A stretch of 64,000 nt of DNA from Aurantiochytrium sp. KH105 (lineage: Eukaryota; Sar; Bigyra; Thraustochytrida; Thraustochytriidae), in NCBI GenBank assembly GCA_003116975.1, contig BGKB01000094.1, positions 124,001-188,000 on the forward strand, given 5' to 3'. The notes under the pieces are model-generated. The model was not told where the DNA came from. It saw only the letters and a list, made by a program, of their open reading frames with translations, and made no database searches. The stretch's first letter is position 1; each line of letters opens with the position of its first letter. This document shows positions 1 to 20,450 of this stretch, one piece after another. The position numbers and the translations under genes are program-made.

Positions 1-504
1 AGGCGGCACGGTCTTGGCGCCCATCAGACTGACTCCGTTCGCAGAAGCTTTCGAGGAACGGCGTCGCATGCTCAAGCTCGCTTCATGGCCATCTCGCTGG
101 CTCGTGAGGACGATGACCACAAATCCAAGCTTACCGCCGAAATTATTGCCCATCAGGATCTCGAACGTCGCCAAAAGGCTGCTGTGCTCAAGTTGCAGAC
201 ATTTTGGCGCGGTAGACGTGCTGCATGGAAGTATCACAATTATCTCAGGGACCGTGTCGTTCGTAAGAGCTTCCTTGTAGAGTACAGTCTGGAACAGTCC
301 TTTATTGAAGAGTGGCGACTTCACCTCATGCGTTTCGTCATCGAAGCGCGCGATTTGGAGGCTCGGAAACAAAAGGAACTCGATGCGCGCCGACAGAGAA
401 AGATGGCGCGTGCATTACGACGAGAGAAACGGCAGCTCACGCGCAAAATCCGCGCAGACCGACGCAAGCAGCAATCCGGGGAAATGTCCAAAAACCTAGC
501 CTAG
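1..504 (+). CDS. IQ-motif protein, C-terminal part (5' truncated by window)
   Basis: The frame is open from base 1 to a TAG at 502-504, so the true start lies outside the window; the first in-frame ATG is at 85. Within the visible 167 residues there is an IQ calmodulin-binding motif (core LKLQTFWRGRRAAW, roughly residues 62-75 of the visible frame), followed by a highly charged Arg/Lys/Glu-rich helix likely to form a coiled coil. IQ motifs bind calmodulin or related EF-hand proteins. The gene converges with the MAP10-like gene, leaving 23 bp between the two stop codons. Because other genes here are ciliary, a cilium or cytoskeleton role is possible, for instance a dynein-regulatory-complex IQ protein, but the fragment is too short to assign a family. 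Confidence 0.7.
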   Translation, partial: RRHGLGAHQTDSVRRSFRGTASHAQARFMAISLAREDDDHKSKLTAEIIAHQDLERRQKAAVLKLQTFWRGRRAAWKYHNYLRDRVVRKSFLVEYSLEQSFIEEWRLHLMRFVIEARDLEARKQKELDARRQRKMARALRREKRQLTRKIRADRRKQQSGEMSKNLA

Positions 505-3062: not shown

Positions 3063-3813
3063 ACCGCACTGCACGTTTTTGTCGTGGTTCTTTGTTGCCA
3101 ATTGCTCCCTCCCCTGGCTCGTCTCCGAACCAGCGACACGAGCGAAGAGGGACCTGCAAAGTTGGCCAAACGAGAACGAGAAGACCCAGGACGGTCAAGC
3201 GCAAGCCTTCGCGCTCGCTCGCCAGGTCTCCGCGGGGAGACGTCGCGGTTCCAGGTCCTCCCCGTCAGCGCGGTTTTCGCGCGCAGGCCGCCCGGACCCG
3301 ACCGCGCCGCTTCTTCAAACCCGCGACCGGCAGCCGCGCTCGCGCCCCTCGCGCCCGCGGCGGCCAGCCTCCAGCCGCGCGCGTCCGGGCTCCCGCCCCG
3401 GGCCGCAGCGCGCTCGGGCTCGTCGGGCTCGCGCTCGGGGTCGGGGTCCGCGTCCCGCGGTTAGGCGTCTGTTTGTCTGTCTGTGTTTCCTTGTCTCGCC
3501 TCGCCTCGCCTCCGCACGCGAAACGGCGACGCGTAACGCCGCCGCGGGGCGTTACGCCGGGCGCCGTTTCGCTATTGGACGATACGCACGATGGCCGGGA
3601 TCGTGCGATTTCTCCTTATCTACCCCCCACCTGTCAGATTAACTACTGGTAAGCAGGGAGAGGGCCTTGCGCGAAAAGAGATCAGAGCTGCAACTTAACC
3701 GTAGCAGGCTGTCTGCGCGCTGTCTGCACGTGCGCAGGCGCGTGCGCGGGCGCAAAAGCAGCAAGCGCGCAGGAGTCGGAGCGGAGAAGCCACAAGCATA
3801 CTCTCGTGTCGTC
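3063..3813. other. GC-rich intergenic DNA between MAP10-like gene and transposon remnant
   Basis: This stretch is strongly GC-rich up to about 3,570, with many CGCG steps and stop-poor spurious frames, consistent with the 5' region of the leftward MAP10-like gene. From about 3,600 it becomes ordinary in composition and leads into the nuclease remnant. No convincing terminal inverted repeat of the transposon could be fixed here by eye. Confidence 0.5.
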
Positions 3814-6292: not shown

Positions 6293-8333
6293 TTACTTTT
6301 TTGCAGGTGCCGTGATGGGCGTGCCATTTAGACTCACTAGGCAGCACGCGACCTTGAAAGCCGCAGCAATCATATCCACTTGGTGGATTGGGACCTTTTG
6401 GGTGAGCCATTGGTAGTCTTTGACACGATTTATTGCTCTCTGCACGTGAATTCGAAAGTGTGCGATTTTCCGTGTGTCATCTGCCTCCTCTCGTGTAAGC
6501 GTATGCTGCCCCTTGAATCGTTTTGGTGGCATGTACAGATATGCACCCTTTCGCTTGGCCACCTCCTCGAAAATTACGAAACCTTTGTCAGCCATGATGC
6601 TTTGACCCGGTTGTGCGCAGACCTCGTAGAAACCCGATCGCTCTGTCAGTTTGGAGTCTGATATACGTCCTGGAAAGGCAGCAGACTGCCATGCAATAAT
6701 ACCACAAGCACTCAGACCAATCAGCAACTTGGCTGTATTGCGCGCCTCGCATTCGCTCCAAGTTGCACTCTGAGCCATTGGGTTGTCTGGTACTTGAATT
6801 TCGAGCTCAGTGGCATCAAGAATCCAGCTGACCGTTTGGTGACCAAATCGATCAGAGACGTGTTTGGGGCACGTAACATCCAGCATACACGGCAACGGAG
6901 TTGGAAACATGCGCGAGAAAGTATGATGCAGAAGATGGATGCCGAATTCAAAGGTTCGCGATATCGTGGATTGGTGGACATCAAACAACGAACCCATCAC
7001 GATCTGACTCAAATTAAGGCGCAGGATCATTAGCGTAATGAGAAGTTTGTCCTCAAGCAAAAGAGGAGCCGTCCGGTGAGAATGCGATCTGCGTGACGGA
7101 GTTGAAAGACTGTCTGAGGCTTCGGAACTATTGAGCTTATTCTTCAGTCCTTGTTCAGACTTCGCGAACCCCTTGTCCTCACGAAAGCTCTGCCACTTGG
7201 CGGTAGCTGCACTGCGCTGCTTCGCGTGACAGCCACCGAAATCATGGACTGCAGACACTATTTCGTCGAAAGCAGGTACGCCGCTGAGGCCAGTGTAAAA
7301 TCGAAGTATTCTGGCGAAGCGCGGAATCGACTTGAAAGATGCCCACCTTAGAGGAACTTGAGAAGAAGAAGTTTTTGTGACCGCTTCTCAAAAAAATGGC
7401 GTAATAATCTTTCGCCTCTTTGGCCTTCGCCCGCGCTTCTTTCTTGGCCTGTTTGGAATCGCTGACGGCAGCGTCTCGTTCTTCACGGAGCTTCTGGAGT
7501 TCAGCTTGAAGCTCTTTGTTCTCTGTTGTCAGTTTCTGATTATACACTGTCAGCTTTTCTTTGTCGCTTTGGAGTTCATTAATCGTGAAATCCGTAAGAG
7601 TTGCCAATCTCTCTTAGAGGGTATTAGCACGAGCGTCAGCTTGGCTTGCATTCGAGGTCTTGACAAAGAGAGCCTGCGCACGTTTCTTAGCAGAGCTGGC
7701 CTCATGTGACAGTCGCCTGATTTCATTCTTTGCCACATCACTCCCCTGGTTCGCAACTTCAAGCTTCGCGTCAAGCTTTCGCGCCTTCTGGGTGCGCTCA
7801 TAGTCAGCATCACTCTCTGTATGGCGGGCACGCGATGTTCGACGGCGTTTTGCCTGACTGCGCTCAGGCGAAGCGATGTGACTTGTGAGTCTGCGCTCCG
7901 CTATCGTCTTTGGTGTGAGCTTATCGCTCGCCAGTACCCATTTGCTAGTCTTCCATTCAGCCCTCTCACCAGCCGGTGGAGGAGACATTGCCGTTTCGGC
8001 AGCTATCACTTGGGTTATATCAGACTTCAAGACCCAATCGTTCGTCTTACGTGTGTCGAACTCAAAGGAGTTTGGGCTAAAATGATGCCAGCGGAAGCGT
8101 CTTCTTGCCCTTGTCCCTGTAGCAACATTCCGCCGCAATCTGTTGAAGATTACATCTCGCGCCTTGCTCTCGCGAAGTGCTGCTGCATCCGTTCTCGTGT
8201 GACGGTTGCTTCTGTAAATCTCGGAAGTGCGGAAATGACCTTGTTTTTTCTGGCACCATTTCAGTGTACATGAGCATTTCGTCTTGCTAGGCGATTTCAC
8301 AGCCGACATTTGCTCTGCAAGCGCGCCCGGCAT
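6293..8333 (-). pseudogene. THAP / coiled-coil / DDE (ISL2EU-type) transposase (broken)
   Basis: Read leftward, an ATG at 8333 opens a degraded N-terminal region; a nearby frame contains ACRANVGC and the main frame WHHFSPNSF, together resembling the C..C and HF parts of a THAP zinc finger. A coiled coil follows (about 7,440-7,600, with ENKELQAELQKL), interrupted by a TAA at 7614-7616. A frame change near the T-run around 7,390 leads into RFYTGLSGVPAFDEIV and then the DDE_Tnp_4-like catalytic core: ILDATEL (first Asp), IMADKGF (second Asp) and IHVQRAINRVK. In the last, relatives have Glu where this copy has Gln, from a CAG codon at 6440-6442. At least three lesions mean no functional transposase. 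It would have catalysed cut-and-paste transposition. Confidence 0.82.
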
Positions 8334-9676: not shown

Positions 9677-9780
9677 TTCGTTCGTTCGTTCGTTCGTTCG
9701 TTCGTTCGTTCGTTCGTTCGTTCGTTCGTTCGTTCGTTCGTTCGTTCGTTCGTTCGTTCGAGCGTTCGATCGATCGATCG
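9677..9780. repeat. (TTCG)n microsatellite with GATC tail
   Basis: About 21 uninterrupted TTCG units occupy 9677-9760, followed by a short GATC/CGAT run to 9780. It lies in the 316 bp between the convergent 3' ends of the MDP-1-like gene and the giant NEL gene; nothing else is visible in that gap. Confidence 0.95.
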
Positions 9781-9848: not shown

Positions 9849-12800
9849 CTAGAGCTGCTCCGGGGGCTGCTGGTCGGCCAGGGGAATGCAGCGAAAGAGA
9901 TGTGTCTTCATATCCTCGAGCGTGCGCACCTTGCGCCAGTAGTCGGTTCCGCTCGGCACCCAGAATTGCATGAGCTCTTCCAACGAGTAGACCGTTCCAT
10001 CGAGCTCGACAGGATCCGCAAGTTCGTCTCCAGCAAGGTCAGTACGCCCCAGAGACACACGACGATTTTTTGTGGGAAGGTCTTTCCACACCACGTCTCG
10101 AGCAAATTCTAGACGCAGCTGGCGTTCCCATTCGCCCCACTGCGCGAGCCACGCCTCAAAGTCCTCCTCCGAAATGGCGCGGATCGTGCGACACACATTG
10201 AAGATCTCCGACGTAGGAATATCAATGTACGATCCGTAGCGCATCATGCGCGAGGAAACAGGGAGGTTCAAAGGGACCCGAAGATCGATCTCGTACCTCA
10301 AAAACACGCAGACATCATCGGTACTACTGTAGCCACCGCGCTTCGCGATCGAGCGAGCCGCGGCCTCATGGACGTATCCAAGACGCATGAGGCGCCGACC
10401 GAGCTCGCGGAGCTTCGTGCGGTCTCCACGTGCACGCGCAATTTCGCAGACAACGTGCATTTGGTTCAGCGCCCAGATTGGCTTGTCTTCGCACGTGTCG
10501 ATGCTGGAAGTCATGCAAATGACGAGCTCTTCGCGCGTCCCAGGGTCGTCCACAAGCAGCTGAATGATCTCCATCACCCGCTCAGCAAGACCGCGTCGCA
10601 TGTTCCTCTGCCGAAACTCGCTAGCTGTACGAAGCTTACTGAGGAACCGTACAACACTGCGCACGTACGCAGCTTCGACACAGGGCTTGATGTCGAGAAT
10701 GGGAGGAGGTTTGCTCGATTTGCCAACATTCGGTTGACTTCCGCGGCTGCTGCTGCTCTGCCTCGCCGCGCTCTCACCTGTATCAGCGCCGGCAGGCTGC
10801 TCTGATTCCGGATCCTCGGCAGATTCTTGAGCGGCCTCCTGAGCGGCTTCCCGATCGGCAATGATCTTGATGGCCTCTTCGCTCAGCGGTCTGCCGTCCT
10901 TTGTGACCCACCCAGCAACAGTACTCCAGAAGCGCACAGCGTCGTCCAAATCGCCGATGGAGTCGTCCGAGTCATAATCATCATCAGAATCATCCACGTC
11001 ACTATCCTCGCCGTAGTCGTTGCGAGATTCTGGATCGTCACGTGTCACAATGTACTCCATCGCCTCCTCCCGCAGACCGTGATCTTCGGTACTATTAAAG
11101 TAAAAGTCGACGCCCTCGCGACCGCTTTGGCGCCAGAGCGCGACCGTTTCTGAATCATCCGTCACCCCTGTGTTGGCCACGTGAACGGCATGGGTAAATC
11201 GAACTGGTTTCTCTGGCATCTTGATCTGTTCAATCTCTGCAATCGCGTCGCTTTCTGCAATTTCAGCGCTCGCGACTTTTTGCAAAATCTCTGCTATCAT
11301 GGCCTCCTGTTCCGGTGTGAGGTCTACTTGCGAACTTGCAAACGACGCAGCGCTTACATTCGATGTGGCAGACGCTGCAGACGGACGCCTAGGCGGTGCG
11401 AGGGAAGAAGAAGAGGACGATCCTCCCCGAAGGCGCCTTCCAACGCTGCCAAGCGCGCTTCGCGCGAGGCGCGACGAAAGGCTCGAGCCCGAGCCTCGAC
11501 GGCGAGTCGCGCCGGCCGTCTGCGAAACCTGCGAGGCAGACCTCGATGGTCGCGAAGTCAACGACCTACGTGCAGACCGGGAAAGTCGGCCACTATGCAC
11601 AGATGGAGTCGTCTCGAGATCAGCCTCCCCATCGCCTTCATCGTCGGCGTCGCTACCAAGGTCGACATCGTCGTCGTCGGTGGCGGCAGCAGCAGGATCT
11701 TTTGTCTCTTCGATGATGGGCTCGAGATCCTTGCGCGCTTCTTCTTGAGCAGCTACACGAGCCTTGCGCTTGATTTCTTGAATCTCAAGTCTGCCTTGCG
11801 CAGCCGCGGTGGCAGCTTCGTCACGCTTCGCCTGCGCTTGCTGCCGAGCCTCATTGGCCTCCTCCCAGAGCGTGCGTGCTTCTTTAGCTTTGTCGACTGC
11901 ATCGGCCATGAAATTGAGCAAGGACTGCGGAAGGCTTTCAATCATGACTGAACCATTGATCATCAGGTCATGGCCTACCTGGACATCGTCAGGAAGAGAC
12001 CTGATCTCGCCACAGCCGACGACGCTAAGCGTTCCGGGAACTTTGAGACCGCGCGGGATCTCCTTCAGCTTGACGCAGTCGACCAAATGCAGGGAGACGC
12101 CAGTTCTTTCTTCGCTGCTTGCCTCCGAAGAGGTCGGGAGATCGTCGAAAGTGCGAAGAGGTTCCTCTTCGGGCTCCTCCATGTCGCTCTCCGAGCTGCT
12201 AGATGAGGAAGAGCTGCTGCTGTCGCTGCTGTAGCTGCTGTCGCTCCTGCTCCTATTCCCGTGGTGGCGGCGATGACTGCGGCCAGCGCCTCCTTGAGCG
12301 GGTTCTGCAAGGCTATACTCGGTGACGATGCGCGATTCGACGCTGGAACGGCTTCGCGTGAACATTGGACGCATGACCTTGGACGCCATCGTGCCGATGC
12401 GGCTCATCTTGCGCACGGGTGTGGCATTTGCGTTGGAGAGCACAGGAGGCGCCGAAAGACTCCAGTTGGTCGGCAGCGTTTCCAGCTCAGGGCACTCGAG
12501 AATAGTGAGGGACCCGCGCACATGGAGATCAGGCGAGATCTTACGCATCTTTAGGCACTGATACACGATCGCCGACCCGTACACTTCAAAAGGGGGCAAA
12601 GTCTCGAAGTCGTCCGCCATTGCAAGAATCAGCGAACCGTAGACGGTCAGCTTGCGCGGCATTTCCGAAAGACTGCTGCAGCCGAGAAGATTGAAAAATC
12701 CCTCTCCGTCTGCGTTCGAAATCTTGGTGAGTGCAGGGTAGCCCACAGTGATGCGCGTCTTTGCAAGTGACTTCAACGCCATACAATAATGCATGTCAAT

Positions 12801-15800
12801 GGCTTCGTAGCAGACGAGCTCCTGCGGCATCTCACGCAGCGATGTGCAATGCTGCATATGGAGACAGCCTTTCGGAATGCGACCGCTCTCTCGGTGATGG
12901 ACGAGCCCGGGATCCGGAATGCCAATTTCGAGGCGTTGTGCCCCCAGCTTTTCTAGAGACGTACAGTGCGACAAATGCAGATCTCCGTAGACGCGCTCAA
13001 GATAGACCTCGCGCAAGCGCGGGCACCGACGAAAGTTTGCCTTGCCTCCAGACACCTCGGCGTTCGCCTCGGACTTGACCTGACCTACGATTGTGCCGGG
13101 ACGAATCTTGACAAGTTCTGGCATCCCCGTGGCAACGAGATTGCCGAGAACACGGATCGGTGGAAGCTCGACGATGCTTGACCCGGAGAGCGTTAGATCG
13201 CCGAGCACCTCGGTCATGCCAAAGAACTCAAGCGCCGTGCAGCCGGTGAGATCAACATCACCTCGCGCCTTAGAGTCCACAACAATAAAACCGTTCTTCC
13301 ATCGCCCGCGCACGCGTCCTACACGCAAGCCGCGTGGAATGATACGAAGCGCCTTGCAGTTGCGCGCTTCGAGGTTTGCGAGGTGGGCATTGGACGGTAT
13401 ACTTGTCAACGAATGGCAGTTGGAAATATCGAGCTTCAGTTGACCCTTTGAGTTTGCGAGCGCCTCATCGGGCAAGAACATGAGATTGCGACAGCCAGAA
13501 AGGCGTAATTCCTCAAGATTCGGCGGAAGGACGTCCGGAATCATTTTAAGCTCGAGCGAATCACTCAGATTCAGCGAGCGGAGATTTGTCAGCTTGACCA
13601 GCAACGGGCTCAGCACACTTGAGTCCTGGAACAGCACGTTGCACTGCGTAATTTCCAGATCGCGAAGCGAGTCCAGATCCTCGTCGGGAACGTCGAGTGT
13701 GGTGAGGTTAGAAAGCTCCTGGAGACGCATTGACGACTTTGCGCCCACCACGGAGCAAACCTCGAGCAAAGGTAGATTGCTGAGGTTGACGGTGCCGTTC
13801 ACGCGAAAGGGAGGGCCAATCTGCTGCACCTTCTCACAGTCTCGTACCACGAGCTTGCCTAAAGTGCGAGATCCCTCGAACGTGACGGCCTCGAGCATGT
13901 TGCACAACATGAGAGTCACTTCGACCTTGGGCCCCACGCTGGCGCTCTCGGTCGCCATTTCTTTTAGGCTGGCAAGACTTTCGAGTTCTAGGCTGCCCTT
14001 CTCGACGAACAAATGCGTCGCTAGCGACTCGAGCTGTGTGCAATGGTCGACAACCAAGGCACCATCGATGGTCAGCCCACCTGCAGCAACTTTGGTGAGG
14101 AATTGACATCCGGAGATTTGCAGTCGACCGTGCATAACCACCTCCGGTGTGGAAGTCCAAAGCTCGTTGACGTTCCTGCACCCGTTGATGTAAACTGACA
14201 CGGACGATGACTCGTCTGAAGTATCATTGTCATTGTCTGCAGAGTTGAGCGCAAGGGCCTTGGGATCAAGTTGAATGCCGTCGAGCGAAGAAAAGCCCCT
14301 ACAGCTCGAGACGCTCAAGCGGGAGCTCACCGTCACGCCAGCCATGGATGCCAGAGAGTGGCAAGAGGTCAAGTTGAGGTTGCGAACAGTGAGACCGTCC
14401 AAATCATGCAGCGCAGGACCCGCGCGAACCTTTTCCTGCTCCTTTTGAAGTTTCAATCGCCGTTTCGTTCTCTGCTCGAGACGGCCCAGATACTTTATCC
14501 ACTTCGCCCGTTTCCTGCGCCGTTTCTCTCTGTAAGCCTGTTTTTCTCGTACCTCGCGTCGTTCGCTTCTCTCCTGACGCCGTTTCGCTCGATTCTCGCG
14601 ACGTTCCGCTCGACCTTCCGTCTCAGACCCAGAGGAATCCTCTGAGACGTAGTCGCGTGCGTCAAAATTCGTTGCTGCCGCGCGGATTCGATCAAAGGCC
14701 CAGTAGGACCAGATTTGGATTTCGCGTGCTTGATCGCTAGTCATTGCACGGCAGGTCTCGAGCGTACGAAGAGTGTCGCTTTCGATGAGCCTATCCAAGA
14801 GATTTTCAAAGCTCTCGTCCTCTTCGATCAATGGGGCCATGAAGCAGCGCAACACTTCAATTTCCCGACGGCCCTCGGGACTATCGCGCGGAGGCACTCT
14901 TAGGTCCACCTCGCCTTCGGGGAGCTCGAGCTTATCGAAGGCGCTCACAACGGCTTGTCTGTGTCTTTCAAGAATCAAGTCATAGCCATTAGCCAGGCCC
15001 TCGACCGTCAGCGCCCGAGCGGCCCGAATTGTGCGAACTCCCTGATCGTAGAACATGTCAAAATAAGAAGCCAGGCCTTCAAAGCGAAGGGCGCGCAGAA
15101 TTGCCGTTTCTTGGTCATTCAGCGGTCTGCGTCGCCACGCCCCGGGATAACGATCCGGATTGCCGAACTCGGCATCCGAAAGGTTCTCGTCAATGTCGTC
15201 ATCACCAAAACTTGCAGACGCCGCCTCAGCCGAGAAGAGGCGACGCGTTAGTCTCACAGTGGTCATTCGATCCATGCCCCAGAGGGGGCTTTCGGACTCG
15301 GTCATGATCGCAAGCAGCTTAGCCTTGCAATCGTCAATGGAAGAAGTCCCCTCGTCCTTCATTGTCTCCCAGTATCGCGCCATGCCGAGGCGAGCAAGTA
15401 TGCGTAAGAGAGGTGGATCGCGCTCGGTACGGGCAGCTGCATTGCGGATAGCAAGCATAATTTCGGTCCGCTCGCGAAAGCTTGTAACCCCGAGCTCCCA
15501 GAGATCAGCGTGCGAGAGCTGGCTAGCAGCTCGCAAAGCGTTCGGTTTGCGCCCTTGTACTTTGCCAAGGAGCGCAGGGGCGCACTCGTCCCAACCTGCT
15601 GTTTCTAAAATGTGCTTGACATGAGAAGCAGAGCCGTAGCGGGGCTGTGAACGACGCCGCATTGCTGATGCGGAGGACAGTTGCGATGCGCGCCGGCGGC
15701 CCGAGGCGGCTGATGTTTGCGACCGACGACGCGTTGCAGACGAAGCCGTCGAGCGCCGGCGCGATGACCGTGAGCGAGATGTCTCGCGTGGCATGGAAGG

Positions 15801-18800
15801 GGAATCATCTTCAGCATTGCTGAGCGACGCATCCTCCTCTTCATCAACTTGAGAACTTTCCTTTTCCGCGATCTTTGCAGCCTCTTGGGCGGTGTCCTCA
15901 TCGGACCAGGACGATGCGCAGGAGCTCGACCCGCCCGAGTCGTAACCGTCCATAATTACCATGTCAGAACCCATCGTCAAGCGGGTGTGGGGCAGCGCCT
16001 TGAGAATGCGCAGACTGTCTTCGGTCGAGATGCCAAACTCTCGAAGCTGAGTGATGTTCAACGACTTGAGTCTTTCAATACTCCTTACGCCACAACGCAC
16101 AATAACGTCGTGGTATTGCTCTGTATCGACTGACTTGAGAAATTCGCGAACGGCAAGGGGTCCGTCCCACATGTTGAGAACAATTTCCTTTTGCAGGGCT
16201 CCTGTGGAAGACGCCGTCGAGTCCGAGTCAGAACTGGATGCGCGACCGCGTTGCGTCCCCATCATTGGCATTTGATGCAGGCAAGCCAGAAGCCTATCAT
16301 TCTGGGCGCCAAAGATCTCGGCAAGCGCGTCGGCAGAAATTGCATGAAGTTGCGCGACCGTGTGATAGCCTTGCTCAAAGAGGGCTGGTGCAACGTGAGC
16401 AAAGCCAGCGCTTGCTAATTTGGCAAAAATAAAGTCCCTTTCGTCGCCCTCAGCCCTCTCACACAATACCTGCGAACTCGCGTCGCTAGCATTGTCTTCG
16501 CTGGGCAATCTGGACGTTCGCCGTTCACTTGCCTGAGAACCTCGCCGAGAGGAAGAGGCTTGACTGCTCCTTTTACTCTCCCTTTTTCCCTTTTTCTTAT
16601 CCTTCTTCTTCTTCTTCTTCTTGACGGGAGGCTCGCTACCCTCTTCGGCAAAGTCCGCGGGGAGGTCAGCGGCGCGAAAGGCCTCAATGATCTCGGCACG
16701 AGCCGCGTACGAGGCCACTTTACATCGCCTCAGAGAATCGTGATCGAGGTTTTTTAACTTCACCGTTGCGCAAAGCCGAGCTTGCGTCATTTCCTCGTAC
16801 AAGGGGCCCTGGTCGATGCTTGCGAGGACCTGATATACTGGCGAGGCCAGCTTCGCGCGTACGCTCTCATCTTGGGCCTCTTGATTTTGACGCTCTGCTT
16901 CGTCGACGAGCTCTTGTGCATCGTCGATAGCCTCTTGAGAGCCTTGCGACTCTGCTTGCGCCTGAAGCTCGAGAGCAGCTGCGGCATGGACAGCAGCAAT
17001 AATGCGCTGCCGCTTCTCGAAACGCACGTAGCCAAGCTCGCGCAAACTTTGGTGAGACATCGACCATGCTGCCTGGGCTGCGGTGTAGATTTTTTTCGAT
17101 TTCAGCCTGGCGACAAGTCTTGGCTCATCAATTTCATTGAGTGCCTCCACAAGTGCAGGACTTGGCGTGGGCGCTGGCCCAGCTTCAACTTCACGAGCAA
17201 TTCTACGCAAAGCAGCTATGATTGGTTTTCGCGTCTTCTTAAATTGCATGCCAAGAGCCTTCATCTCTTTGTTCCCGACATAGCGGCACGTGTCGACGTT
17301 ATCGTATCCCCCTCTTTTCAACTTTTCGTACCATTCCATCAGATTCTCACGACGCAGCGCTCTGCGCAAGCGCTTGCGGAAAATCCGTTGCGCTTTTTTA
17401 TCATTTGCCGCGTTTGGATCAGCTTCGTCGCCACTCCTCTCCTTGTCAACATCACTGTAGTCTTCTTCTTCTTCTTCCTCTTCGCTGCTGTCCTCTTCGC
17501 TGCTGTCCTCTTCGCTGCTGCTCGAGCCGCGGCCAGAATACCTGCTTCTACGAACTCTGCTTCCAGAGCTGCATTGCGTGCGCCTGGTTTCGGAACGGCG
17601 CGTCAAGGCATCTTCGCTATCATCGTCACTGGATGTTGCACGATACCCCTCCCCCTCCCAAAAACTACGGTCGCGCATGGCCGCTAACACTCGTGATCGC
17701 GTAGAGAACAAGAAAATGCCTGCCTCACGCAATTGCCCATGTGAGATATTTTGACAGGCTTCGAATGAATCAAAGCCTCTACTTTCGAGGTGACGAAGAA
17801 TGCTCTCATCCAGGTCAAAGTTTCGAAGAGCTTGACGCAAGGTGCGACCTGGTCTGCCAGTGCTCTCTCGTGCCGGTGCCGGTGCTGGTGCTGGTTGCCG
17901 TCGATCAGGGTGCGACCATGCTTCGCGAGAGTTCAACATCGTCAAAAGTCTGTCGCGGTCAATGAAGCGATGTACGCCCCATCGACGCAAATCCACGTGC
18001 GTAATCGTGCGGCAAGTTGAGTATGTCAGCGAATTGGCTGCGGTAAAGCTTGGCAGCAGGTCCTCGCGATTGACGGCTCGGAGGATCCCCACAAGACCAG
18101 CTTCAATAACTTCTTCCCCAGCGTCCTTATCTTCTTCCTCAGGCTCGTCAGGCTCGTCAGGCTCAGCCTCGGCATTTGCAAACGCCTCGAGGACTCGCTC
18201 ACGATCCAGAAAAAGCCGCACCCTCAAGCTATTGTGCAGAAAAAAGTGCGAGAGGAGACTTTTGCAGACACTCACCGAAGTAAGCCCCTGGCTTTTGAAG
18301 GCCGGCCACAGGGTGTCTTCCATTTCGATGCTTGAAAGAATTTTGCGCACGGTAGTAGCATTTGACGTGTATGACAACGCCAGAACCTTCTTACGATCCT
18401 TTTCATCTTCCTCGTCCTCGCTTTCCGTTGGGGTGTCGCTCTCGTGCACGCTGTACTCAGACACTGACGAGAGGCTGGAGTGATCAAGAGCGTCATCAAA
18501 AACGTTCCAGCCTGAAGGGACGCACTCGACCAGCTCGATACGACCGAGCTCAGCGGTTCCTGACTGCGAGAGCCCTCCTGAAAGAGGCGAGTTTCGGATT
18601 TCCACGTCGACACGGTTGGGGTTCGCGGTCTCCAGGTGACCGGCGAGGAATTCCAGGGAGGGGCAACTGAAGATGTGCACTGCGAGGTCAACATTAGCCT
18701 GCGGTTGAAGATGAAGGTGGCCCTCCGTGATGCAAGCAAAGTGTCGGCAAGATCGGACACTCAGAGGCCCGGTCAAGTGCAACGAGCCTGCGCTGCTAGA

Positions 18801-20450
18801 GAGCGACTTGAGGGCCGGGCAATCGTCCAGATTTGCTCCGGCGATGGTGACTTCGCCTTTCGACAAAGTGCGGAGAGCTCTACAATTGCTAATTGACAAA
18901 GACCGTGAGCACTCGAGCGAGGAGGTCGCCACGGTCTTGAGCTTTGCGCAGCGCTCGAGCGTGAGCCCCGCAATGCTTACATTGTCGCCTAGAGACCGGA
19001 GTTCGTCGCATCCTCGAATGTAGACGCTGTGCGATGCACTGATCAGATTCGGCGCGAGCTCTTCGATGTCATCCAAGCTTGACAAGTGCAGATCTGAGGT
19101 CACGCACGTATTCTCGAGCCAGTCAGCTGCGCCTTTGACGCGTTCGAGATTGAGATTCTTGACTGTCCACGCCACCTCGGCGGGGTTCACATTCGGCATG
19201 GAAGCGTCGCGGATCTTAACGGAGCACTTTGTACGGATACGCTCGGGCAGACCCGGAATGTCGCTCAGCTCCCCGTTCATGTTGAGCCAGAAGTCTTTTT
19301 TGAGCCGGAGACCGCGAACTTGTGGCGGCCCCTCGCGAGCCTCGAGTTCGGCGATACGATCTTGGCGGGCCTTGAGAAGACGGGCGCGACGGCGGGCATT
19401 TCGGCGCTCCACGCGCTCGCGCTCCAAGCGAGCACGAACGCGTTCTGGAGCGCGTGTGTCCTCGAAGGCGGAAATGATAGCGTGGCGAGCAACAAAGGTA
19501 GTCACACCGGCAGCGCGGAGGGGCACATGCGTTAAGGTTCCGCACCGCGAGAGTGTTGTCCACCCATTTTCTTCAAAAAGCGGAAACATATCCTCCATAC
19601 CAATACCGCGCAAGAGTTGGCGAATCATAAACGGCTCGTTTGACTCAGGATCGGTACTCAGCTCGCCGGACTCGTCGTCACTGATGTCTTCGGGATCAAA
19701 GTTCTGACCGGGATCACTGTTAACGGCACTGGAGGCATCGAGATTTTCAAATGCGGCGATGATGCGTTCGCGCATGGAGAACAGCGGAACGTCTGCAGCG
19801 CGCAGATCAGAGTGAGACACATTGCGAAGCCGATCGAGCGTCACAAGATTCTCGCGCTCAAAGGATGGGATAAAGTCTGCATGTCCAATGTTACGAAGGA
19901 CGTTCGCGATGGTCACCATCTCATCGTTTCTGTCGAGGTCGTCGACGTCCGAGTCGTAGTCAGACCCGTAGTCGAGGGCTGGCTCTGCAGCGTAGAGAGC
20001 TTTCTTGACTTGATCTATGCCATCGACGTTTGCGCTTTCAACTCTGTCGGCCCAGTCTTCGATGTAAGCTCGTGTCGCTGCATCGCAGCGAGAGCGGTCT
20101 TTCTTCTTGGACCTTTTCCGCCTCGGCCGTCTGCCCCTTGATCGTGGCGCGCTGCCCGAGGATCCTGACGTGTCGCTGTCGGAGAACAAGGGCGAGGACT
20201 CTTGCGAGGAGCTGCTGTCACTGGTTGCGCTGTCCCGCTCGCGCCTGAGCAGGCGATTCGCGGCTTCTTCGTCGTCTTCGTCGTCCGAGCGGTCCGAGTC
20301 GCGGCGCACCACGACGTCTTCGCCGTCTTCGGGGCCCAGGCCTGCCTCCGCGAGGCTTGCCGCCAGGGCTGCTGCGAAGGCGTCTTCGTCGCTCTGGCCA
20401 TCCTGCTGCTCGCGCAGCGCCCGCAAGAGGTAGCTCTCGTTCTCGCTCAT
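9849..20450 (-). CDS. Giant SAM/LRR protein with C-terminal NEL E3 ubiquitin ligase domain
   Basis: A single 10.6 kb frame encodes 3,533 residues from ATG 20450. Residues 21-35 (DEDAFAAALAASLAE) fit a ubiquitin-interacting motif. About 14 divergent SAM-like repeats (hydrophobic core of the form LRGIGMEDMFPLFEENG with a closing LRAAGVTTF helix) lie between about 175 and 1,930. Two leucine-rich blocks (xLxISNCxxLxxLP-type) lie at about 377-650 and 2,010-2,845. A charged coiled coil (about 2,850-2,915) and acidic Ser-rich linkers follow. The last about 280 residues match the NEL domain of bacterial IpaH/SspH/SlrP ligases: CEDKPIWALNQM with candidate catalytic Cys3320 (codon at 10491-10493), a LGRRLMRLG helix, LRVPLNLP and WLAQWGEWE. 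NEL enzymes form a thioester with ubiquitin through that Cys. The inferred role is a scaffolded E3 ligase. Substrates and origin are unknown; transfer from bacteria is a plausible source of the module. Confidence 0.88.
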   Translation of the reverse strand: MSENESYLLRALREQQDGQSDEDAFAAALAASLAEAGLGPEDGEDVVVRRDSDRSDDEDDEEAANRLLRRERDSATSDSSSSQESSPLFSDSDTSGSSGSAPRSRGRRPRRKRSKKKDRSRCDAATRAYIEDWADRVESANVDGIDQVKKALYAAEPALDYGSDYDSDVDDLDRNDEMVTIANVLRNIGHADFIPSFERENLVTLDRLRNVSHSDLRAADVPLFSMRERIIAAFENLDASSAVNSDPGQNFDPEDISDDESGELSTDPESNEPFMIRQLLRGIGMEDMFPLFEENGWTTLSRCGTLTHVPLRAAGVTTFVARHAIISAFEDTRAPERVRARLERERVERRNARRRARLLKARQDRIAELEAREGPPQVRGLRLKKDFWLNMNGELSDIPGLPERIRTKCSVKIRDASMPNVNPAEVAWTVKNLNLERVKGAADWLENTCVTSDLHLSSLDDIEELAPNLISASHSVYIRGCDELRSLGDNVSIAGLTLERCAKLKTVATSSLECSRSLSISNCRALRTLSKGEVTIAGANLDDCPALKSLSSSAGSLHLTGPLSVRSCRHFACITEGHLHLQPQANVDLAVHIFSCPSLEFLAGHLETANPNRVDVEIRNSPLSGGLSQSGTAELGRIELVECVPSGWNVFDDALDHSSLSSVSEYSVHESDTPTESEDEEDEKDRKKVLALSYTSNATTVRKILSSIEMEDTLWPAFKSQGLTSVSVCKSLLSHFFLHNSLRVRLFLDRERVLEAFANAEAEPDEPDEPEEEDKDAGEEVIEAGLVGILRAVNREDLLPSFTAANSLTYSTCRTITHVDLRRWGVHRFIDRDRLLTMLNSREAWSHPDRRQPAPAPAPARESTGRPGRTLRQALRNFDLDESILRHLESRGFDSFEACQNISHGQLREAGIFLFSTRSRVLAAMRDRSFWEGEGYRATSSDDDSEDALTRRSETRRTQCSSGSRVRRSRYSGRGSSSSEEDSSEEDSSEEEEEEEDYSDVDKERSGDEADPNAANDKKAQRIFRKRLRRALRRENLMEWYEKLKRGGYDNVDTCRYVGNKEMKALGMQFKKTRKPIIAALRRIAREVEAGPAPTPSPALVEALNEIDEPRLVARLKSKKIYTAAQAAWSMSHQSLRELGYVRFEKRQRIIAAVHAAAALELQAQAESQGSQEAIDDAQELVDEAERQNQEAQDESVRAKLASPVYQVLASIDQGPLYEEMTQARLCATVKLKNLDHDSLRRCKVASYAARAEIIEAFRAADLPADFAEEGSEPPVKKKKKKKDKKKGKRESKRSSQASSSRRGSQASERRTSRLPSEDNASDASSQVLCERAEGDERDFIFAKLASAGFAHVAPALFEQGYHTVAQLHAISADALAEIFGAQNDRLLACLHQMPMMGTQRGRASSSDSDSTASSTGALQKEIVLNMWDGPLAVREFLKSVDTEQYHDVIVRCGVRSIERLKSLNITQLREFGISTEDSLRILKALPHTRLTMGSDMVIMDGYDSGGSSSCASSWSDEDTAQEAAKIAEKESSQVDEEEDASLSNAEDDSPSMPRETSRSRSSRRRSTASSATRRRSQTSAASGRRRASQLSSASAMRRRSQPRYGSASHVKHILETAGWDECAPALLGKVQGRKPNALRAASQLSHADLWELGVTSFRERTEIMLAIRNAAARTERDPPLLRILARLGMARYWETMKDEGTSSIDDCKAKLLAIMTESESPLWGMDRMTTVRLTRRLFSAEAASASFGDDDIDENLSDAEFGNPDRYPGAWRRRPLNDQETAILRALRFEGLASYFDMFYDQGVRTIRAARALTVEGLANGYDLILERHRQAVVSAFDKLELPEGEVDLRVPPRDSPEGRREIEVLRCFMAPLIEEDESFENLLDRLIESDTLRTLETCRAMTSDQAREIQIWSYWAFDRIRAAATNFDARDYVSEDSSGSETEGRAERRENRAKRRQERSERREVREKQAYREKRRRKRAKWIKYLGRLEQRTKRRLKLQKEQEKVRAGPALHDLDGLTVRNLNLTSCHSLASMAGVTVSSRLSVSSCRGFSSLDGIQLDPKALALNSADNDNDTSDESSSVSVYINGCRNVNELWTSTPEVVMHGRLQISGCQFLTKVAAGGLTIDGALVVDHCTQLESLATHLFVEKGSLELESLASLKEMATESASVGPKVEVTLMLCNMLEAVTFEGSRTLGKLVVRDCEKVQQIGPPFRVNGTVNLSNLPLLEVCSVVGAKSSMRLQELSNLTTLDVPDEDLDSLRDLEITQCNVLFQDSSVLSPLLVKLTNLRSLNLSDSLELKMIPDVLPPNLEELRLSGCRNLMFLPDEALANSKGQLKLDISNCHSLTSIPSNAHLANLEARNCKALRIIPRGLRVGRVRGRWKNGFIVVDSKARGDVDLTGCTALEFFGMTEVLGDLTLSGSSIVELPPIRVLGNLVATGMPELVKIRPGTIVGQVKSEANAEVSGGKANFRRCPRLREVYLERVYGDLHLSHCTSLEKLGAQRLEIGIPDPGLVHHRESGRIPKGCLHMQHCTSLREMPQELVCYEAIDMHYCMALKSLAKTRITVGYPALTKISNADGEGFFNLLGCSSLSEMPRKLTVYGSLILAMADDFETLPPFEVYGSAIVYQCLKMRKISPDLHVRGSLTILECPELETLPTNWSLSAPPVLSNANATPVRKMSRIGTMASKVMRPMFTRSRSSVESRIVTEYSLAEPAQGGAGRSHRRHHGNRSRSDSSYSSDSSSSSSSSSSESDMEEPEEEPLRTFDDLPTSSEASSEERTGVSLHLVDCVKLKEIPRGLKVPGTLSVVGCGEIRSLPDDVQVGHDLMINGSVMIESLPQSLLNFMADAVDKAKEARTLWEEANEARQQAQAKRDEAATAAAQGRLEIQEIKRKARVAAQEEARKDLEPIIEETKDPAAAATDDDDVDLGSDADDEGDGEADLETTPSVHSGRLSRSARRSLTSRPSRSASQVSQTAGATRRRGSGSSLSSRLARSALGSVGRRLRGGSSSSSSLAPPRRPSAASATSNVSAASFASSQVDLTPEQEAMIAEILQKVASAEIAESDAIAEIEQIKMPEKPVRFTHAVHVANTGVTDDSETVALWRQSGREGVDFYFNSTEDHGLREEAMEYIVTRDDPESRNDYGEDSDVDDSDDDYDSDDSIGDLDDAVRFWSTVAGWVTKDGRPLSEEAIKIIADREAAQEAAQESAEDPESEQPAGADTGESAARQSSSSRGSQPNVGKSSKPPPILDIKPCVEAAYVRSVVRFLSKLRTASEFRQRNMRRGLAERVMEIIQLLVDDPGTREELVICMTSSIDTCEDKPIWALNQMHVVCEIARARGDRTKLRELGRRLMRLGYVHEAAARSIAKRGGYSSTDDVCVFLRYEIDLRVPLNLPVSSRMMRYGSYIDIPTSEIFNVCRTIRAISEEDFEAWLAQWGEWERQLRLEFARDVVWKDLPTKNRRVSLGRTDLAGDELADPVELDGTVYSLEELMQFWVPSGTDYWRKVRTLEDMKTHLFRCIPLADQQPPEQL

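Follow-up and report, generated by a model that had tools for sequence, protein, structure and literature searches.

A native family of NEL genes at 16 loci of a thraustochytrid genome and its largest member, a probable ubiquitin ligase with a putative U-box-like C-terminus

Introduction

A review of the NEL family treats these ubiquitin ligases as enzymes made by bacteria that target eukaryotic hosts (PMC9320238). A stretch of 64,000 nucleotides from Aurantiochytrium sp. KH105 (contig BGKB01000094.1, positions 124,001 to 188,000; hereafter the window) carries a gene whose product ends in a NEL domain. This locus raises the question of whether the gene is a native eukaryotic ligase or foreign bacterial DNA. 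The initial annotation had offered either a eukaryotic NEL ligase family or an acquired module. We found 16 loci that make up a eukaryotic NEL family. The window gene belongs to this old family, and its product is probably a native E3 ubiquitin ligase that depends on a cysteine; a mechanism for it is proposed below.

Results

NEL domain and catalytic residues

The NEL profile PF14496 matched the window protein with 96 bits, compared with a curated cut-off of 24. A predicted model of the C-terminal part of the protein showed the NEL fold in a fold search of the Protein Data Bank (PDB), including a match to IpaH3 (3cvr) with a root-mean-square deviation (rmsd) of 4.6. The NEL assignment is secure, and both the profile and the structure prediction agreed with the domain first named for this gene. 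The C-x-D motif of the window protein is Cys3320-Glu-Asp3322. Its Cys and Asp were present in 40/40 domains of eukaryotic or unnamed source (16 loci of this genome and 24 others) and in 14/14 NEL domains of Pseudomonas, in line with the earlier choice of Cys3320 as the catalytic residue. The base Asp was present in 39/40 and 14/14 of these domains, respectively. SspH1 Asp552 and IpaH9.8 Asp397, the catalytic bases, are equally distant from their nucleophile, and Asp3378 of the window protein aligned with SspH1 Asp552. The roles of these residues in bacterial NELs are treated in PMC12506513 and PMC7728815. The features of the gene are as follows.

9849..20450, minus strand: uninterrupted gene of 3,533 amino acids, with UIM-like motif, 14 SAM units, leucine-rich repeats (LRRs), Ser/acid-rich linker, NEL domain and putative U-box-like domain
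20343..20393, minus strand: UIM-like ubiquitin-interacting motif, residues 20-36 (Pfam UIM 13.6 bits, cut-off 21)
14676..19916, minus strand: 14 SAM-domain units, some partial, residues 179-1925 (iterated local profile; Pfam SAM_2 E 4.4e-27)
11904..14402, minus strand: LRR region, residues about 2017-2849, borders approximate (Pfam LRR_EndoS 36.3 bits, cut-off 27.9)
10101..10658, minus strand: NEL catalytic domain (Pfam PF14496), residues 3265-3450 (profile match, alignment and model)
10485..10493, minus strand: C-x-D motif, Cys3320 (nucleophile) and Asp3322 (Cys and Asp conserved across compared domains)
10317..10319, minus strand: Asp3378, candidate catalytic base (alignment with SspH1 Asp552)
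9882..10112, minus strand: putative U-box-like domain, residues about 3447-3523, in the place of the SspH1 helical thumb that holds ubiquitin-charged E2 (E2-Ub)

The initial annotation was right about the NEL end of the protein but did not pick up the array of 14 SAM units, the probable UIM or the putative U-box-like domain at the C-terminus.

Residence in a eukaryotic genome

Both haplotypes carry the window gene, with open frames of 3539 and 3546 codons. When 17 neighbouring open reading frames (ORFs) were scanned with Pfam, 11 were matched and 6 had no match. The domains included eRF1, WD40/EML, filamin and PH, class-3 lipase, AMP-binding, short-chain dehydrogenase and one transposase, and the first three of these ORF types bear out the earlier view of a resident gene among ordinary eukaryotic neighbours. 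Seven named NEL homologs of Hondaea fermentalgiana, a thraustochytrid of the Labyrinthulomycetes (P0002, P0007, P0016, P0017, P0019, P0025 and P0032), all matched an allele of this genome at 98.6-99.9% identity over the aligned length. The initial annotation had thus rightly supposed a labyrinthulomycete.

Contaminating bacterial DNA, a chimeric contig, or a bacterial insertion that is recent and without function would fit the description of NEL as a bacterial family in the review cited above. However, this explanation is contradicted by the eukaryotic neighbours, by the 16 loci on two haplotypes, by the fusions to SAM, SPRY and ARM-type domains and by the seven independent Hondaea records, and the best identity to the bacterial loci found was 31%. 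Its probability is negligible, and a bacterial or chimeric contig, which had been named beforehand as the finding that would overturn the annotation, is ruled out by the neighbours and the Hondaea records. The eukaryotic residence of the NEL gene is secure, and a gene in a eukaryotic genome with eukaryotic neighbours is not a bacterial effector delivered by type III secretion.

Public Hondaea NEL records were misnamed automatically as disease resistance protein TAO1, importin, tubulin and ryanodine receptor. P0025 and P0032 are records named tubulin or ryanodine receptor, and P0032 is longer than the ORF in this genome. A tubulin fusion in P0025 was rejected as a merged gene model, since the corresponding locus is a stand-alone ORF of 952 amino acids.

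A family of 16 loci

A scan of the genome (76 Mb, 367 contigs) gave 32 NEL matches, all above the cut-off and without internal stops, corresponding to 16 loci on two haplotypes. The proteins of allele pairs were 95 to 99% identical, and next-best paralogs were 27-53% identical over the aligned part. The matches sit in uninterrupted ORFs of 568 to 3,533 amino acids (for the window gene, part of the second allele was read). Together with relatives from other sources, including an ortholog of 3,458 amino acids (P0031), these loci substantiate the earlier guess of a eukaryotic NEL ligase family.

The NEL family is under purifying selection. The pooled ratio of nonsynonymous to synonymous substitution (dN/dS) of the 16 allele pairs was 0.094 in NEL and 0.190 outside NEL, and individual NEL allele pairs ranged from 0 to 0.29; the one paralog pair tried was saturated. 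These values bear on whether the proteins could be sensors or scaffolds whose NEL domain lost ligase activity. The very large non-catalytic parts and the altered base residue of paralog L021 would agree with such a loss, but the intact C-x-D motif in all 40 domains, the base in all except L021 and the stronger pooled constraint on NEL make it very improbable. Ligase activity of the protist NEL proteins is, judging from these residues and the predicted fold, likely.

The architectures comprise UIM-like/SAM/LRR-NEL (the window protein), LRR or repeat-type N-termini, SPRY and LRR (L012 and L025), and ARM-type (L015). The Arm score of L015 was under the Pfam cut-off, and those of its relatives P0011, P0012 and P0015 were above it. 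The model of P0024, a short LRR-NEL relative, showed an LRR solenoid with a mean pLDDT of 84 and a pTM of 0.54, so the relative domain arrangement is unsure. Its best PDB matches included Leptospira LRR proteins, YopM, SspH2 and a plant NLR LRR; the match list of this LRR-NEL model was filled by LRR proteins and was uninformative on the C-terminus. By eye, L028, L034 and P0024 begin with a similar Leu/Trp/Glu-rich stretch ahead of the repeats, without a Pfam name. Loci L009 and L010 hold two different NEL genes, oppositely oriented with about 4 kb between them on both haplotypes (C31 and C93), the only NEL pair within 10 kb among the 32 matches.

The C-terminal domain

The thumb of SspH1 is described as two long antiparallel helices (PMC12506513). 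This helical E2-Ub thumb of IpaH/SspH-type effectors was absent from the predicted model of the window protein. After the catalytic part, the model instead has strands at 260-265, 280-283 and 286-289 and helices at 290-300 and 311-317, and in the PDB fold search this predicted domain matched the U-box structure 2kr4 with an rmsd of 5.1. For sequence comparison, an alignment (A3) was made of 20 hand-picked C-terminal domains, one per allelic pair and four others, and 7 U-box stretches were taken from this genome. The main hhalign set held 6 of these, without L045, whose Pfam U-box match covers just positions 5-56 of 73, and the smaller set held 5, without L039 and L045. With the main set, hhalign gave a probability of 50% and a weak, collinear signature. 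The profile match of the domain to Prp19 reached only E 0.3. A PDB sequence search with the last 85 residues of the window protein found nothing beyond a weak similarity (E 0.038) to one unrelated protein. All 28 sites of the domain found in this genome adjoin a NEL domain. The A3 profile was unmatched in the 14 Pseudomonas NEL proteins (best E 0.2), so the domain was not found in those 14.

On the basis of this sequence signature and the predicted fold, the C-terminus of the window protein is quite likely U-box-like, and in the protist NEL proteins a eukaryotic-style U-box fold appears, from the predicted model, to replace the E2-Ub docking thumb. Such a replacement suggests E2 docking through a eukaryotic-style module.

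Several points weigh against this reading and against the ligase mechanism built on it. The Pfam U-box profile (PF04564) was unmatched in 20/20 family members scanned with E up to 10, and the name U-box-like was chosen because of this. A loop-2 proline, usual in U-boxes, is not generally present in the C-terminal domains. The match to 2kr4 depends on a predicted model in which the domain was folded together with NEL, and the NEL fold match to IpaH3 spans 49..319 of the model and so reaches into the C-terminal domain. Besides the hhalign probability of only 50%, global alignment scored lower (13.4), the smaller U-box set gave 20.2 with a probability of 13% over 13 columns, and hhalign was aimed at U-boxes after the resemblance had been spotted by eye. 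The Glu at the base position of L021, the sole exception of 40, and the UIM score below its cut-off count in the same direction, and the case is drawn from sequence and a predicted model. The unmatched Pfam U-box, the Prp19 and 2kr4 values and the hhalign probability would also suit another form of native NEL ligase, with E2 bound elsewhere and the C-terminal domain serving as a structural cap or as a contact for substrate or ubiquitin; we regard this as unlikely.

The N-terminal part and a proposed mechanism

Residues 20-36 covered 17/17 positions of the Pfam UIM profile (PF02809). The stretch and its Ala/Ser core are nearly unchanged in P0031 despite a diverged N-terminal half, and a scan of NEL proteins for the UIM-like pattern matched only the window protein and P0031. 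The ortholog has the same layout, with 14 SAM units in each protein by the iterated local profile. The two proteins were 67% identical in the searched C-terminal region, 41% in residues 1605-3526 and 29% in residues 1-1512. A Ser-rich stretch near residues 2700-2775 breaks up the LRR region of the window protein, and a long Ser/acid-rich linker follows the LRRs. A second block resembling LRRs sits nearer the N-terminus, at residues 382-650 or so, where it separates SAM unit 2 from SAM unit 3; it is weakly similar to the ortholog's main LRR region.

Tandem SAM arrays often polymerise, and the window protein may accordingly work as a ligase in clusters, in which the 14 SAM units would gather copies into a scaffold. 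The putative N-terminal UIM may retain ubiquitinated partners. In bacterial NELs, according to one study, the LRR binds the substrate, the NEL cysteine receives ubiquitin from E2, and the thioester is hydrolysed when substrate is missing (PMC12506513). The conserved residues and fold support carrying this mechanism over to the protist family by analogy. The U-box-like domain would dock ubiquitin-charged E2, and ubiquitin would move onto Cys3320 with Asp3378 as general base. The LRR, or ARM or SPRY and LRR in paralogs, would hold the substrate, and its occupation would switch the enzyme from hydrolysing idly to ubiquitinating the substrate.

Relatives and origin

The protein search requires shared exact words and a length window and may therefore pass over NEL proteins of other eukaryotes. 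The first search gave 28 proteins: 6 from Hondaea, 20 of unnamed source (10 tagged jgi and 10 tagged lgn, taken as metagenome or read-archive assemblies), one from Durusdinium trenchii (P0012), and P0009, whose organism name is incomplete. Two further searches gave 3 and 2 proteins and added P0030, P0031 and P0032. P0012, on a contig of 11 kb in a dinoflagellate assembly, joins ARM-NEL to a PDCD5-like dsDNA_bind domain; it could be genuine, the product of a merged gene model, or contamination from a thraustochytrid.

In an unrooted tree of 54 NEL domains, many loci of this genome paired with a sequence from another source, and those duplications therefore predate the split of the lineages. Well-supported pairs were L025/P0020, L028/P0003, L037/P0023, L015/P0015, L036/P0010, L009/P0028 and L013/P0027. 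In this tree 20/50 inner branches were weak, some end branches were long, and the bootstrap had not settled. Bacterial genomes were scanned with two peptide patterns from eukaryotic sequences, which favours look-alikes; 91 stretches matched and 14 were confirmed as relatives, all from environmental Pseudomonas at 28-31% identity. A viral source was rejected, as none of the 6 pattern matches in viral contigs was a relative.

The NEL genes are an old resident family in the thraustochytrid, whatever their ultimate donor, and the earlier alternatives of a family and an acquired module need not exclude each other. NEL could have arisen in protists and then been captured by bacteria for effectors. 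The eukaryotic and unnamed-source side of the tree shows more diversity than the 14 Pseudomonas rows, and both sides have the catalytic core in common. However, the tree is unrooted, the bacteria come from one genus found by pattern scan, and the named eukaryotic holders in the protein searches were Hondaea and one Durusdinium record, plus the record with an incomplete organism name. We consider this direction of transfer doubtful.

Other features of the window

6293-7258, minus strand: DDE_Tnp_4 transposase (117 bits) that also carries an HTH (46 bits), some 2.6 kb past the NEL gene on its 3' side

The interval between the NEL gene and the transposase holds a (cgaa)n repeat, starting near 9770 and extending to 9700 or below. 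A search of the window for RNA genes gave no Rfam match at gathering score and no tRNA.

Discussion

A resident eukaryotic NEL family with intact catalytic residues offers a natural, non-pathogen setting for studying NEL catalysis, and inventories of eukaryotic E3 ligases may miss the NEL type. The origin of bacterial NEL effectors becomes a testable question through protist genomes. A faster-changing recognition part and a constrained catalytic part in 16 versions fit a sensor family; that the family senses microbes or viruses inside the cell is a guess, less probable than not. More tentative still is the joint reading of a native eukaryotic cysteine-relay class, U-box-like plus NEL, forming a thraustochytrid sensor family with exchangeable LRR, ARM, SPRY and SAM modules in cell-autonomous immunity and sharing a common NEL origin with bacterial effectors, perhaps passed from protists to bacteria.

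In the open-licence literature on Hondaea or thraustochytrid E3 ligases and on IpaH with U-box, no account of a protist NEL family was among the matches listed. An earlier claim of NEL-like sequence in eukaryotes concerns green-algal NLR proteins (PMC7145615); in the relevant part of that paper, the resemblance is through an LRR-type superfamily domain (ODAL), and the catalytic cysteine is not discussed there. PMC7029713 includes a NEL accession among its search models.

The protist proteins share with the NEL effectors SspH1, SspH2, SlrP and IpaH (PF14496) the NEL fold, the C-x-D nucleophile, the base Asp and the position of NEL after an LRR recognition domain. They differ in being encoded by a eukaryote as a 16-locus family, in some fusions to SAM, SPRY or ARM-type domains, and in the putative U-box-like domain where the effectors have the helical E2-Ub thumb. 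Their C-terminal domain appears to resemble the U-box E3s Prp19, UBE4B/E4B and AvrPtoB in predicted fold and in its weak collinear signature; unlike these, it is unrecognised by the Pfam U-box profile and adjoins NEL at every site found in the genome. The suggested pairing, as linked modules, of a U-box fold for E2 docking with the NEL cysteine is comparable in logic to RBR and HECT ligases, in which an E2-docking module passes ubiquitin to a catalytic cysteine, but here the catalytic domain is NEL and the docking module would be U-box-like. LRSAM1, an animal E3 ligase of antibacterial autophagy, likewise joins LRR and SAM to a ubiquitin ligase. LRSAM1 is a RING ligase with one SAM, whereas the window protein combines a NEL domain with 14 SAM units.
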